Source of the DNA: a virus
Strand: one strand, 5' to 3'
IMG/VR virus record: IMGVR_UViG_3300048759_000052
Span: 1-23,422 of that record
Length of the DNA: 23,422 bases
A program made the position numbers and the translations under genes. The stretch's first letter is position 1. Every line of letters begins with the position of its first letter. Of this stretch, positions 10,938-21,464 are shown piece by piece. Below the pieces are notes generated by a model, which made no database searches, had not been told where the DNA came from, and saw only the letters and a list, made by a program, of their open reading frames with translations.

Positions 10938-11582
10938 TTAATGCATCAACTGCAACGCGTCAAGCACATGCGGCATGATATGCTTCTCCATGAGTCCGTA
11001 ATTATCAGGTACAACAAGCATCATCTCAGTTCCTTGATGTCCCCACTCCGGCCAGTCTGGCACTTGAGTAATAATATCCGCGCCTGTTGAGTTCCTGGTC
11101 TTAGTCCACCCAATAACCACTTTGTTCGATTCCATGTAAGCGGTCAGCAGATTAGTTCCGACACACGGCGGTTCAAAGGCTATAGTCGTTATAGGAGCGT
11201 GACCTCTTACTGTTAGCTCAAGACAAGTTAAGACAGCCTCACCCGCGCCCTTGGAATGACCAGTGACGAAAAAACTGGGCCAGCTGGCCGCAGCCAGATC
11301 AGCAGCAATCGCATCAACTGCGCTGGCAATATTCAACCAGAACCCGAGATGCACTGGGCCAGCTTGGGGATGCTGGACAAAAGGCACCTCCAGCGCTGTG
11401 AAATCGATCAACCACTCTCGAAGTGATTGTGTTCCCTCAAAAGCATAACACGGCATACCTTCGATATATGACTTAAAGACATGACAAGTCTTCCCAGGGT
11501 TTTCGTACCAAGGAATAGCACCAGTCACATAACAATCGTTCGCAGCGTTCGCGAGAGGCATCACCCACTGATCGTTAATCAT
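10938..11582 (-). CDS. Class 3 lipase-like alpha/beta hydrolase
   Basis: 214 residues. It has the class 3 lipase signatures in order: AFEGTQSLREWLIDF (the usual AFRGT..DW..D block), VHLGFW, the nucleophile elbow GHSKGAGEA with Ser110, GADIITQVP with candidate Asp169, and EKHIMPH with candidate His201 (or 205). So a complete Ser-Asp-His triad can be proposed. No signal peptide. The ATG at 11582 is chosen because AAGGA lies 7 nt upstream; an in-frame ATG at 11597 lacks one. Its position between baseplate wedge genes suggests a virion-associated enzyme acting on envelope lipid or acylated polysaccharide, but the substrate is unknown. Confidence 0.85.
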   Translation of the reverse strand: MINDQWVMPLANAANDCYVTGAIPWYENPGKTCHVFKSYIEGMPCYAFEGTQSLREWLIDFTALEVPFVQHPQAGPVHLGFWLNIASAVDAIAADLAAASWPSFFVTGHSKGAGEAVLTCLELTVRGHAPITTIAFEPPCVGTNLLTAYMESNKVVIGWTKTRNSTGADIITQVPDWPEWGHQGTEMMLVVPDNYGLMEKHIMPHVLDALQLMH

Positions 11583-11614
11583 GATTACGTCCTTCATACA
11601 TTAGCAACAGATCA

Positions 11615-16590: not shown

Positions 16591-18678
16591 TCACACTAAT
16601 GCAGATCGAGTCTGGCGGACTAAGTCCGCATTCGCTCTACTACTCGTACGATCTAATGCTGCTTCAGCCCCAGACACATCATTGGTATGAATAGTATTAT
16701 TGATAGTCTGGTTATTAGTAATGTTCGGTGCAGCAGTTGCCGCAGCGCCAACTCCAGAATTTCCACTAATTTGTGACGTTACAGGAGGAGGAGGTGTTGC
16801 GTTATACTGATTTAGTGCATCCATTGTTAAGCCTCTACGTTTAGCCGCCTCATCAGGATGATTACCGTATATTTCAACCTCACTTCCGAATACATCAGAT
16901 GCAGCCGCAGGACCAAAGCTTTTAGCCGCTTCAGTCATATGCTTCCCAGCTTGCGCATGTGTAGTAGCTAGCTCATGCAAAATGAACTCGGCTTGTTCCT
17001 GCATCAACTGCTGACGAGGTACGCGAGGATCGTTAACAGCATGCTCGTATATCGCCTCAAAGCTAGCTCGTCTGGTTGTATCCCACTGCCCGAGCCCAGC
17101 ATGCCCGCTCTTATTGGTCGCGTACGGATCAAGGCTGCTTTCGCCCGTAAAGTTGCCAACAATTGCTGCCGCCTCTTCACGTGACTTGCCGTGATCGATA
17201 AAGTACTGCATCAACCAGTTGGAGGTGCTTTGCTGTTCGTCTGTACTAGCGTGCCCATGCCCACTTGATGCAATCCTACCACGGCCGCCAGCACTAGGAT
17301 GTATACCGGGTCTAACTTCACCAGCATGACCACCAGTCACAATATTAGGTACAACATAAGCAAGAGCGCCTATGGCAGCCACACCAGCACCAATCCCTAA
17401 AGCAGTTCCTCCGCTAATACCAATTGCACCAAGAATAGCTGAAGTCACTCCTGAAGCCACTCCACTGCCAGGAATCAAACTAAGCGCTTCAAGCACTTTA
17501 CCAATAGGAAGTATCATTCCTAGCAGCCATTTACCCCCCATAAATATAGCCAAGCCTTCTAGCACGCCCTGCCATTTGACTGTGCCATTAACTAAGGTAT
17601 CAAGCCAGGTAGCAAAGTGATCAAATTCATCCAGCACATGTTTAATCTCAGGTGCCCACACATCCCAGTTGATGAAGTGATCAGCCCCCTTCTTCCAATT
17701 CTCGAAGTCTTCAATAAGTGCGACGATGCCGCCGATAATCAACATAAATGGATTGCGGTTTAGTAGTATAAGCACCGCACTAATTCCTATAATCCACTTA
17801 GTCAATCGACGTGATGGCTCGTCCAGCTCACCAAACCACCTAATAAAATCCCGCGCAAATTCGGTAACATCTTCAGCAGCGGTGATTATCTGCTCACCTA
17901 TCCATAAAATACCATGCACCACCTGCTCAACTACCTGCTGAATAGCACCACTGTTATCCAGTAATAATTCTCTGAGCTTATCCATATCTATAGTCAGACC
18001 CGGCATCAAAGATGTAGCTATATTCTCGATCAAGGGCTCAAGCCCAGCTGACCATACTCCACGCAGGGCGTCCATGAATTTTAGAGAAGTTTTAGCCCCA
18101 GCATCAGCGTCATATCCTATTCTCTTATAAGCGTCATGTACTAAATCCTCGTAGCGCTGTGCCTCGTCTCCTTCATTACGAAGTTGCGTAACCATACGCT
18201 CGCTTAAACCTAATCGAGTGCCGTAAGCAATCGCCAGCTGCGGCGTCATAGTAGCAAATGCTTTACCTAGGTCAAGCAGAGTTTGTGCTGTATCCTTGAA
18301 CTCATAACCGGACCCTAAGATAGAGCGCAGAAACCCCTCTGATCCTAAGTGAGTACGCTGAAAGCTAGCAAGCGCCTCAAGCGCGCCATGCGCCTCACCC
18401 GCCGTCACTCCTAAGTTAGACATTGCGAATGTGAACGCGCGGATATTCTCGACACTAGTATGAGTCCGCTGCGATTCCCAATAAAGATTCTCCAGCCCTT
18501 TAGCAATCTCAGTAGTGAAACCAAGGATCAATAAAACGGCCGCCTCTACGGCAAGTCCAAGCTTATTGACTTCTGCAGTAGCTGCACCAATAGTCCCGAT
18601 GAACTTATGATGGCTCTGCTGATCAACATCAAAACCTAAGCTAACTAGGAACTCCCGAATGGTGTTTTCATTAGCCAT
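16591..18678 (-). CDS. Tape measure protein with C-terminal lysozyme-like domain
   Basis: 695 residues. The N-terminal half is helical (about 1-290), followed by hydrophobic segments at about 296-323 and 376-445 that may help form the DNA channel through the inner membrane. Residues about 484-625 resemble the phage tail lysozyme domain: WLMQYFIDHGKSREEAAAIVGNFTGESSLDP, then GLGQWD; Glu513 in GNFTGES is the candidate catalytic acid. A Gly/Ser/His-rich linker (about 447-480) precedes it. Length of a tape measure sets tail length. The ATG directly follows the stop of the frameshifted chaperone. Confidence 0.9.
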   Translation of the reverse strand: MANENTIREFLVSLGFDVDQQSHHKFIGTIGAATAEVNKLGLAVEAAVLLILGFTTEIAKGLENLYWESQRTHTSVENIRAFTFAMSNLGVTAGEAHGALEALASFQRTHLGSEGFLRSILGSGYEFKDTAQTLLDLGKAFATMTPQLAIAYGTRLGLSERMVTQLRNEGDEAQRYEDLVHDAYKRIGYDADAGAKTSLKFMDALRGVWSAGLEPLIENIATSLMPGLTIDMDKLRELLLDNSGAIQQVVEQVVHGILWIGEQIITAAEDVTEFARDFIRWFGELDEPSRRLTKWIIGISAVLILLNRNPFMLIIGGIVALIEDFENWKKGADHFINWDVWAPEIKHVLDEFDHFATWLDTLVNGTVKWQGVLEGLAIFMGGKWLLGMILPIGKVLEALSLIPGSGVASGVTSAILGAIGISGGTALGIGAGVAAIGALAYVVPNIVTGGHAGEVRPGIHPSAGGRGRIASSGHGHASTDEQQSTSNWLMQYFIDHGKSREEAAAIVGNFTGESSLDPYATNKSGHAGLGQWDTTRRASFEAIYEHAVNDPRVPRQQLMQEQAEFILHELATTHAQAGKHMTEAAKSFGPAAASDVFGSEVEIYGNHPDEAAKRRGLTMDALNQYNATPPPPVTSQISGNSGVGAAATAAPNITNNQTINNTIHTNDVSGAEAALDRTSSRANADLVRQTRSALV

Positions 18679-19352
18679 TTAATGCGCCCTTGTCCTAGCG
18701 GCATTGATCCGACGCTGGTTTTCATCTTGCACATCGATTGCATCATTAAGATCAGCAACGTACGCTAGATCGACAGAACCATCGATCAAACTCTCAGCTC
18801 TTAACAACCCACGAAGCACAGGACGCATGATGAATCCTTCATCTTTTGGTATTGGTACCCAGTCAACAGAAGGCTCATCATCTAGGGTGCTGACAAACCC
18901 GTCGGCTGGTTCCCGCCGAAAAAACTTCCTAGGTTCTCCTGTAGTACACGGACAGTCAACTCAAGCATCACCTCCAGATCGATATCTTGATACATCAGTT
19001 GACCGATTGATGCATTAAATATCGGCGCCCATGGTGCGTTATCAGATATCTTACGATGACAAAGCACCAGACAGCTATCAACCACAAAGTTGCAGTCCGT
19101 ATCACTCAACATCCCTAGCGACTTCAAGCTAAGAGCTGGAAGTAGTTTAGGTAATGTGAGCTTGATATCATCAGCATCGAACCCTGAATCTCTCGCCTTT
19201 GCTATAACTGCATCGGACATCGCACCATCTGTTGATGCCCCAATGATAAGGCTAATCGGCAGCGATGATAAGCGACGTGCGACATGCAACTGCGTCCGCG
19301 CACTCATGACACCAATACGATACGTATGGCCTCTGATCTCAATATCAGACAT
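18679..19352 (-). CDS. Frameshifted long tail assembly chaperone (-1 fusion)
   Basis: Predicted 224-residue product made by -1 slippage at 18918-18924: 145 residues from the zero frame, then 79 from the -1 frame (RREPADGFVSTLDDEPSVDW ... NAARTRAH). The -1 frame stays open from the slip site to a TAA (18679-18681) that directly abuts the tape-measure ATG, with no other start needed. This is the arrangement of the lambda gpG/gpGT chaperones, which bind the tape measure during assembly. As an alternative, an ATG inside the -1 frame preceded by AAGGA could give a separate C-terminal protein of 47 residues. Confidence 0.75.
18882..19352 (-). CDS. Tail assembly chaperone, short form
   Basis: 156 residues. 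MSDIEIRGHTYRIGVMSARTQLHVARRLSSL at the start and the helical remainder match tail assembly chaperones located between tube and tape-measure genes in DUF3383-type phages. The zero-frame ending (GGNQPTGLSAP) is only 11 residues past the slip site. AGGAAA lies about 7 nt before the ATG. Expected to act in the cytoplasm during tail assembly and not to remain in the virion. Confidence 0.8.
   Translation of the reverse strand: MSDIEIRGHTYRIGVMSARTQLHVARRLSSLPISLIIGASTDGAMSDAVIAKARDSGFDADDIKLTLPKLLPALSLKSLGMLSDTDCNFVVDSCLVLCHRKISDNAPWAPIFNASIGQLMYQDIDLEVMLELTVRVLQENLGSFFGGNQPTGLSAP
18918..18924 (-). promoter_or_regulatory. Ribosomal -1 slippery heptamer T TTT TTC
   Basis: The minus strand reads AGT TTT TTC GGC in the chaperone frame, a canonical X-XXY-YYZ slip site at codons 144-145. 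A short inverted repeat (TCGGC ... GCCGA) overlaps and follows it; it starts too close to the site to be a typical stimulator. Confidence 0.75.
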
Positions 19353-19400: not shown

Positions 19401-19862
19401 TCACCCCAACTGAGGGACGCCAGCTCCAAGCAACGGCACCAAAATACCAGACGGGAATCGCCACTCCATGACGTTGCCCGCTTTAGCGAAGGTGTTATTC
19501 GGCTGGCGCGCAAAGGCAACAAAGGTACCTGTGATCATATCACCGCGAGTCGGATCACGAATCACCACCACGTTCTGTCCCCAAAACGCACTACTGCTGC
19601 GCTGGAAATCATACATAGCACTCAGCAGCCCATTAGTTGGTGATGTTTTCAACAGCCGAATCGTGAAGACTCCACCTTGTGCGGCATTAAGTGACATCAT
19701 AGGAGTACCATCAGCGCCGATTACCATAGTACCTTTGTCCTCCGACATCTCATACGAGATGCCCTCCTCAGCCACTGCAGCACCATTAGCAAGGTTGATA
19801 TTGCCACCAGGCCCTGATATCGCAGCCTGAATGTCAAGGAATGAGTATGCGTTTCCGGCCAT
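19401..19862 (-). CDS. Tail tube protein (DUF3277)
   Basis: 153 residues. MAGNAYSFLDIQAAISGPGG, then SEDKGTMVIGADG, LLKTSPTNGLLSAMYDFQ, VVVIRDPTRGD and NVMEWRFPSGIL fit the DUF3277 family of structural proteins next to DUF3383 sheaths, generally taken as the inner tube. AGGAGG (within CTTAGGAGG) lies about 10 nt before the ATG. It should polymerise into the tube around the tape measure. Confidence 0.85.
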   Translation of the reverse strand: MAGNAYSFLDIQAAISGPGGNINLANGAAVAEEGISYEMSEDKGTMVIGADGTPMMSLNAAQGGVFTIRLLKTSPTNGLLSAMYDFQRSSSAFWGQNVVVIRDPTRGDMITGTFVAFARQPNNTFAKAGNVMEWRFPSGILVPLLGAGVPQLG

Positions 19863-19922: not shown

Positions 19923-21464
19923 TTACGGGTTCACGTTTATGATCACGTTCGCGCTATGCATAGCACCTGCGAGTTTCACTGCACATTGCATAACAGGCGC
20001 CTGCCGTGCAGCACGATTGGCTTGAGGCTGTGATGCTAAAGGCGGCGTGTAGATATAATACCCCAGCGGCAGGTTCTGGCCAGTCAGCAGTTGCCCGAAC
20101 GAAGGACCATTCCAAATACCAGGCGCGCACCATCCGTTATTCACAGCAGCAGCAAGCGATGATGTGACAGTCGCATGGTATTGATTAACACCTGACTCAG
20201 TCTGCGGAATCTTGGTCGGGGTCTGGTAGAACAGATTGAATATGTTGTACTGGACATTGTTCTGTAGCCAGTCCGCTCCCCATACTGTATCAGCAAACTG
20301 ACCAGACACCATTACACCTTGCTGCAGGATCGCAGTCACAGAGTTAATGTTGCTTTGTGGTGTTGCATAGTTAACAAATACATTGCAGTTCTTCGCTGTC
20401 AATGCTGCCGCCTGCGACTCAGTCAAAGTCTCAGCAATGATCCCTGTTTCAGTCTTAAACTTCAAGGTGATCATGCTGTTACTCGCGGTCGGATCGATAA
20501 CCGAGAACTTAGCAAATGCCGCAATAGCAGCATAAGGACTGCTGGACGAGTACTGTAGGTATGTGTGATTATACCCCAAGCTCTGCAGCACGGACGCCAG
20601 ATCAGTTGTCGATGTTGAACTGATAATACCAGCCTCATTGCTGGTAGCCCAGTACGAATGACTTGGACTAAGCGCCTCTATGTACCCAGCAACTGCTTCA
20701 TGATCCGAATCAGCCAACTGAGAAAAGCTAATCGGCGCGAAAGCGAAAGCATACGACCCGAACAACTGCGTAGGCCCAGTCAAAACAGTTGCGCAGGTTA
20801 AAGCCGACTCAGCAGCAATTCCGTTGACAGGTGTTGATGCTCCAGTTACTGCTGTTGTTTGCAGCAAAGCAGATACATCCACACCAGTCCCTTGAGTAGT
20901 GCCGTAAGTAATAGTCGACCCGGTCCCGGTAGTACCAGAATAGAAATTAAAGCAAGAGATGCTGTCCGGCATAAAGTTAACTTTAGCACCTGCTTTGATT
21001 CCAGACAACGCTGTCTGGAGGATCGCTGCAGCACCGTTCAGCGTTGTGATGCTGGAAAAGTTTAGTGCAGTCAAAGCACATACCGTGCCATCAACTGTAA
21101 TACTCATAGTACCAGTACTGATCGCCTGCAACGCAGTGAGCAAAGTTGCCTGCGCTGCGATACTGAATTGCCCGGTATGCAGTACAGCACTTGTTGCTGC
21201 TTGTGCCCACCGCCCAATTTCAACCTGAGTAGGTTGCGGGGTTTGGCTAAATAGAACAGCAGATGCCAAATATTCAGGTGATGTATTACTGAAGTCGGCG
21301 AGTACCCCTGATATGTTAGTATACACCCTGATCCGCTGAGATACATCGATGACGTTAGATGGTCCAGCGATACAGATCACACCAAAGTTGCGGAACTGAA
21401 GCCCAATCGGCGTCAACATCACCGAAACGGTGATATTGTCACTCATTGATAAACCTGCCGGCAT
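19923..21464 (-). CDS. Contractile tail sheath protein (DUF3383)
   Basis: 513 residues. The start (ITVSVMLTPIGLQFRNFGVICIAGPSNVID), VYTNISGVLADFSNTSPEYLASAVLFSQTPQPTQVEIGRW and ITVDGTVCALTALNFSSITTLNG correspond to DUF3383, the sheath family of several Burkholderia, Acinetobacter and Pseudomonas phages. Its length is typical. Together with the tube gene downstream it shows a contractile tail. AGAGGAG lies 11 nt before the ATG. Confidence 0.9.
   Translation of the reverse strand: MPAGLSMSDNITVSVMLTPIGLQFRNFGVICIAGPSNVIDVSQRIRVYTNISGVLADFSNTSPEYLASAVLFSQTPQPTQVEIGRWAQAATSAVLHTGQFSIAAQATLLTALQAISTGTMSITVDGTVCALTALNFSSITTLNGAAAILQTALSGIKAGAKVNFMPDSISCFNFYSGTTGTGSTITYGTTQGTGVDVSALLQTTAVTGASTPVNGIAAESALTCATVLTGPTQLFGSYAFAFAPISFSQLADSDHEAVAGYIEALSPSHSYWATSNEAGIISSTSTTDLASVLQSLGYNHTYLQYSSSSPYAAIAAFAKFSVIDPTASNSMITLKFKTETGIIAETLTESQAAALTAKNCNVFVNYATPQSNINSVTAILQQGVMVSGQFADTVWGADWLQNNVQYNIFNLFYQTPTKIPQTESGVNQYHATVTSSLAAAVNNGWCAPGIWNGPSFGQLLTGQNLPLGYYIYTPPLASQPQANRAARQAPVMQCAVKLAGAMHSANVIINVNP

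Follow-up and report, generated by a model that had tools for sequence, protein, structure and literature searches.

The tail assembly chaperone gene of a phage with a contractile tail very probably yields a G/GT-type pair by -1 ribosomal frameshifting

Background

Does the region between the tail tube and tape measure genes of an uncultivated virus encode a single tail assembly chaperone, or a G/GT-type pair in which the second product is extended by a -1 ribosomal frameshift? The G/GT frameshift is called a classic of tailed phages in a passage of a review (PMC5009743), and part of the GeneTack study reports 7% frameshifting for a cluster of phage tail assembly chaperones similar to an HK97 protein (PMC3711429). 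We analyzed a 23.4-kb virus record (the window) and traced the chaperone locus through its relatives. The locus very probably belongs to a contractile-tailed phage and gives rise to a G/GT-type chaperone pair by -1 ribosomal frameshifting; the evidence for the frameshift from the single genome is moderate and the comparative evidence is strong.

Results and discussion

Organization of the locus

The chaperone locus and the run of tail genes around it lie entirely on the minus strand of the window: the sheath comes first, then the tube-type protein, the chaperone, the -1 ORF and the tape measure, and after these a Dit-like protein and the baseplate proteins. The sheath gene (19923..21464) encodes a DUF3383 protein (PF11863, phrog_205) and the next gene (19401..19862) a tail tube-type protein of the KPP10_Orf10 family (PF11681), homologues of which are annotated as DUF3277 or putative tail tube. 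The zero-frame chaperone (18882..19352), the short 'G'-like product of 156 aa, runs from its ATG to a TAG at 18884-18882 and matches PF21822 Phage_TAC_15 (E 3e-15) and the tail assembly chaperone family phrog_1688 (E 1.4e-23). It is separated by the -1 ORF from the gene for the 695-aa tape measure protein (16591..18678; phrog_2276, PF18013), and the chaperone and the -1 ORF together are thus located between the tail tube and tape measure genes. The structural model of the chaperone had a mean pLDDT of 82.8 and its viral fold matches included an uncharacterized phage protein (E 3.9e-9) and a protein named tail assembly chaperone (E 2.8e-7), while a PDB fold search with the same model returned no match at E 0.001 or better.

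The 3' end of the chaperone gene reads AGT TTT TTC, then 11 codons, then the TAG, so that the slippery heptamer T TTT TTC (18918..18924) stands in the X XXY YYZ phase of the chaperone frame. Starting at 18960, 14 codons upstream of the slip, the -1 frame has no stop until a TAA at 18681..18679 that directly abuts the tape measure ATG at 18678. The -1 extension, the 'T'-like domain, has 79 codons plus the TAA (18679..18918), and with base 18918 read twice the predicted fusion would measure 224 aa. The sequence-only reading had placed the heptamer in the correct frame 11 codons before the zero-frame stop, without stating the strand, and had let the -1 frame run to the tape measure start codon; both statements are exact, with the heptamer at 18924-18918 on the minus strand. 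The window taken alone is a modest witness: in synonymous re-draws the -1 frame still reaches the zero-frame stop with a probability of 0.605, and 34 heptamers occur in any frame on its minus strand. A second in-frame heptamer, G GGT TTG (18894..18900), is probably unused as a slip site, because it lies off the position that is conserved in the relatives.

Conservation of the slip site and the -1 frame

Similarity searches with either the chaperone or the extension recovered the relatives; with tblastn, 22 phage records matched the chaperone and 31 the extension. The 134 sequences with an extension (133 loci and the window) were reduced to 88 non-redundant ones, 42 near-duplicates being removed from 130 remaining rows, and finally to 86 usable loci, the window included. 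Left out were: the window's own place (L001), in which the extension was not found; four loci with too little upstream DNA (L063, L107, L010 and L119); a second, partial copy without a chaperone (L052); and a locus with broken frames (L033). One of the searches contributed the best 80 of 568 confirmed matches, with a pattern from which the slip site was absent, and the set as a whole leans to intact, window-like extensions; loci that lost the extension are under-sampled, because the relatives were found through it.

A canonical in-frame heptamer was present 84-108 nt upstream of the conserved core of the extension in 79 of the 86 loci, and the remaining seven had the non-canonical sites GGATTTT (five), GTCTTTT (one) and GTTTTTT (one), where a one-codon slip or a different site is needed. 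Heptamer density reached 9% and 5% of codon positions in the two 30-nt bins around the slip site; in the other bins of these genes it was 0 to about 1%. The -1 frame was open from the slip to the core in all 86 loci, and 59.1 is the number in which synonymous re-drawing predicts a -1 frame that reaches the zero-frame stop. The check that had been proposed on the sequence, whether heptamer or frame is lost in relatives, therefore came out in favor of the frameshift, the exceptions to the open frame being two apparently decayed copies (L147 and L033).

The codon choice at the slip site is equally distinctive. At the aligned Phe column (window residue 144), which was read without consulting the heptamer, 83 loci have TTT, two TTC and one ACT; from local codon usage, 33.1 TTT would be expected at the 85 Phe codons. 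TTT was found at this column in all 31 loci in which it makes up under 25% of Phe codons, and in these same loci it accounts for 103 of 749 Phe codons elsewhere. Positions picked by the slip site itself gave a concordant result (TTT in 83 of 85, 33.0 expected); this choice by heptamer or TTTT favors TTT, and it was for that reason that the test was repeated at the alignment column. Since TTT is far above its usage at this Phe, the nucleotides are kept and not Phe or the peptide alone.

Coding constraint in the -1 frame is evident from third-position-rich changes between relatives, with counts at codon positions 1, 2 and 3 (from pairs that are not independent) of 1420, 1121 and 2836 before the core and, likewise from non-independent pairs, 5305, 2715 and 10943 within it. 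Four loci in which the -1 frame is very long (L058, L130, L065 and L131) were inspected for a natural in-frame fusion of the chaperone with DUF6889, and none was found; these are chance-open frames beside an ordinary zero-frame chaperone.

The DUF6889 extension

The 49 aa that follow an in-frame ATG at 18828 of the -1 ORF match DUF6889 (PF21829, E 2.4e-16) and phrog_4364. In an alignment of 30 extensions, LPDGEDWL(M/L)RPV forms a conserved block whose first part lies upstream of the Met. The model of the 79-aa extension (mean pLDDT 73) places a helix at residues 28-35 and a long one at 51-78, after a start of low confidence; a search of solved structures by sequence, with profiles of chaperone and extension, yielded nothing at E up to 1. 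DUF6889 is best read as the frameshift-made C-terminal ('T') domain of a tail chaperone. A literature search by the name DUF6889 found no paper, and for that reason the assignment may be new as an annotation. A Pfam family of unknown function would so gain a role, that of a frameshift-made tail-chaperone C-terminal domain in phages with a DUF3383 sheath, and this role would explain the records that list DUF6889 as a separate gene, omit it or misname it.

Two peculiarities were met among the records. In three Klebsiella phages (MK448230, MK422455 and MK416019) the DUF6889 reading is annotated as 'NTP pyrophosphohydrolase', which is probably a misnaming. Yersinia phage YP3 (PV092592, record positions 33593-33727; L052) has, apart from its tail chaperone gene, another and partial copy of the extension.

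Copies in bacterial genomes

Twenty rows derive from bacteria (prophages): 14 loci from genome contigs and six from the family of Acinetobacter rathckeae, in which DUF6889 was present in 6 of 149 genomes. These rows hold one repeat (L151, the same place as L143) and near-identical pairs. Fifteen of them have a canonical heptamer and 19 a -1 frame that is open through the slip region; the five without a canonical heptamer likewise call for a one-codon slip or a different site, and one of them (L140) has no recognizable site, not even T TTT. The locus of Candidatus Glomeribacter gigasporarum (L147) has kept its slip site but has a break in the -1 frame some 30 nt upstream of the core, and it is probably a decaying prophage copy; L033, with its broken -1 frame, looks decayed as well. 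In the order of Dyella, DUF6889 occurred in 4 of 299 genomes. The slip-site reading covered two of these four loci (L157, the same place as L138, and L158; L155 and L156 fell outside it), and both have T TTT TT sites.

Candidate stimulatory signals

Stimulated bacterial -1 frameshift signals of the IS-element/dnaX kind have a stem-loop 5-8 nt past the site and an SD-like element upstream of it. Neither of the candidate stimulators of the window stands out. The Shine-Dalgarno-like AGGAG (18936..18940), 11 nt upstream of the heptamer, is equalled in its pairing with the anti-SD by 37% of synonymous shuffles, and the candidate stem-loop (18871..18900), which begins 17 nt past the slip, is not better than chance (z -1.25 for a 48-nt stretch). 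Scans with Rfam and for tRNAs and promoters/terminators gave nothing bearing on the slip site. Over the 86 loci an SD-like element at 9-10 nt exceeded its synonymous shuffles by a little (paired z about -3), and it was rejected as a specific signal in view of an equally large one at 18-22 nt; by class, z was -1.93 for U6+ sites and -1.62 for short sites.

RNA just past the slip (+4) was more stable in loci with short sites (mean z -1.23, s.e. 0.27, n=28) than in those with U6+ sites (mean z -0.50, s.e. 0.16, n=68). At the +5 offset the arms of the short-site loci paired with their own partners at 16.54 versus 13.1 under partner permutation (sd 0.58, 0/1000), a signal that may reflect common ancestry of the group, function or both. 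Pairing at the eight other offsets was less clear or absent (z at most 2.4). The U6+ sites had a weaker signal at +5 (z 3.6; other offsets at most 1.9). Six rows stood outside these class tests: L144, L151, L154 and L148, which duplicate loci of the set or are closely related to them, the decayed L147, and L140, which lacks a site. The arms of the stem-loop co-vary (GGGCTG/CAGCCC, GGACTG/CAGTCC, GGGTTGC/GCAACCC), and the structure is located some 6 nt after the short slip site in L047, L050, L041, L043, L037, L120, L122, L149, L150, L152 and L153.

Passages of a study with E. coli assays (PMC4066793) report that, with no stimulator present, frameshifting occurred at 39 of 64 heptamers and barely at tetramers such as U_UU.N, and that UUN and AAN codons were on average more shift-prone. 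The more stable RNA downstream of short sites fits this result. Slip-site strength and a downstream stem-loop may trade off across the chaperone family, with the stem-loop retained beside short sites (AAATTTT, CCCTTTT, GGGTTTT, GGATTTT) and little or none of it beside U6-U7 sites, a suggestion that we put forward tentatively and with somewhat more doubt than confidence; the stem-loop 6 nt downstream of short sites, weak in the U6-U7 class to which the window belongs, is possibly a new observation. If the trade-off is true, the slip rate, and through it the ratio of the chaperones, would be kept constant by two exchangeable parts. The family offers slip sites that vary naturally, some with a stem-loop and some without, in which to study how a frameshift rate is stabilized.

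Beyond the synonymous expectation, RNA structure peaks a second time over the GEDWL(M/L)RPV codons (mean z -0.38 to -0.60), in a stretch that reaches about 24 nt to each side of the conserved MRPV codons. Loci that lack the Met have the stronger peak (-0.92, against -0.27 in those with it), and in the window it is absent (z 0.03 to 1.75).

Alternative explanations

The arrangement could also arise if DUF6889 were a separate small protein, initiated at the in-frame ATG (18826..18828) with a Shine-Dalgarno sequence of its own, the overlap with the chaperone being mere gene packing. An AAGGA (18839-18835) does lie 6 nt upstream of this ATG, a PHROGs family of 54 positions exists for the short reading, and 6 of the 16 annotated relatives that were opened list it as a gene. 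The start itself, however, is poorly kept: a Met occupies the position in 45 of the 86 loci, against Leu in 36 and other residues in five, and its frequency depends on how the loci were found, with 26/26 where the search pattern included the Met and only 18/59 where it did not (14/44 from the best 80 of 568 and 4/15 from the phage collection). Seven of the 41 loci without the Met have no ATG, GTG or TTG at all from the slip to 24 nt past the position. The conserved LPDGEDWL is upstream of the Met, the -1 frame stays open back to the slip in every one of the 86 loci, and in the predicted model Met31 is located inside the helix at 28-35 (mean pLDDT 73). The Shine-Dalgarno before the Met is no stronger than in synonymous re-draws (-4.86 vs -5.18), which also counts against the Met as a real start; at the same place in the loci without Met it is stronger (-6.90 vs -5.82 in re-draws; Mann-Whitney p 0.003), and that of the window itself is ordinary, 71% of re-draws being as strong. 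We consider a separate protein very unlikely as the explanation of the locus; initiation at this ATG may nevertheless occur as a minor extra beside the frameshift.

The frame might instead be changed by RNA polymerase slipping on the run of T's, of which there are six in the window and seven or more in some relatives. Six T's are short for polymerase slippage, and AAATTTT, CCCTTTT, CCCTTTC, GGGTTTT, GGATTTT and GGGAAAT stand in for a long T run at about the same place in other loci; because the T runs of some relatives are only three to five long, transcriptional slippage is unlikely, and in the short sites as a group the co-varying stem-loop stands 6 nt past the slip, a feature also of ribosomal sites. 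Polymerase slippage is still less probable than a separate protein. The least credible explanation is that a sequencing or assembly error, or gene decay, split one reading frame in two, to which the origin of the window from an uncultivated virus contig and the apparently decayed copies (L147, L033) might give occasion: the same split was found in 86 of 86 usable relatives, and another IMG/VR contig, which may come from the same sample, matches 6498 of 6500 bases over the locus. A G/GT-type pair made by -1 frameshifting, as the sequence-only reading had suggested, has the support of gene order, of the family matches, and of the conserved slip-site nucleotides and open -1 frame.

Proposed mechanism

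According to the ribosomal frameshift reading, the majority of ribosomes would end at the TAG and release the 156-aa chaperone, whereas a minority would slip back one base at U UUU UUC, most simply by tandem re-pairing in which both Phe tRNAs pair again on UUU. The slipped ribosomes would read on in the -1 frame to produce the 224-aa fusion with DUF6889 as extra C-terminal domain, and the slip rate would set the ratio of the two products. By analogy with gpG/gpGT of lambda, the tail of which is non-contractile, the N-terminal part that both products have in common may coat the tape measure protein, and recruitment of tail tube subunits may fall to the rare C-terminal domain. In the account of lambda given in part of PMC5009743, the common part binds the tape measure and the extension binds the tube protein.

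Relation to known systems and annotation

The review passages on lambda gpG/gpGT (PMC5009743) describe the features that the window has in likeness: two overlapping frames, a -1 slip near the end of the first, and a product that acts on the tape measure. The likeness is one of organization. For contractile tails, parts of a 2025 paper on the chaperone locus of Pakpunavirus Adele and of the Vandenendeviridae and Andersonviridae (PMC12846349) argue for the same mechanism in these two families: a conserved -1 frameshift is reported with GTTTTT near the 3' end of TAC-N, and the -1 frame was open in all Vandenendeviridae alleles examined there. The likeness to the window lies in the contractile tail and the conserved -1 frameshift; the fold match of the window's chaperone to that of phage Moogle is weak (E 0.074).

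We opened 19 regions of 18 phages, 16 of which were annotated. Among these 16, two have a joined frameshift product (Mulock and Magia), six a separate hypothetical gene and eight no feature at all. The expectation that the second frame would be missed by gene calling was thus borne out in the eight records without a feature and contradicted in the six that list a separate gene; the 49-aa ORF from ATG 18828 is one that a gene caller may report as such. Klebsiella phage Mulock (MN098327) and Burkholderia phage Magia (MT701587) share the gene order of the window and have a homologous chaperone with a -1 extension. Identity of the chaperone to that of the window is 28.9% over 92% for Mulock and 37.3% over 48% for Magia, and their slip sites, G GGA AAT TTT TTG (overlapping heptamers) and C CCT TTT, respectively, differ from T TTT TTC. 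A passage of the Magia genome paper (PMC7883833) states a frameshift for its chaperone, and a term search within the Mulock paper (PMC6856289) found no mention of frameshift. The mechanism is already known, and Mulock and Magia were already annotated with it; the present locus is the case of another phage, followed through its relatives.

Two further observations concern the neighboring genes of the window. The tape measure protein has a C-terminal tail-lysozyme domain (PF18013, residues 489-615), and directly downstream of the baseplate genes, at 10938-11597 on the minus strand, lies a gene for a class 3 lipase-like protein (PF01764, E 2.4e-13).
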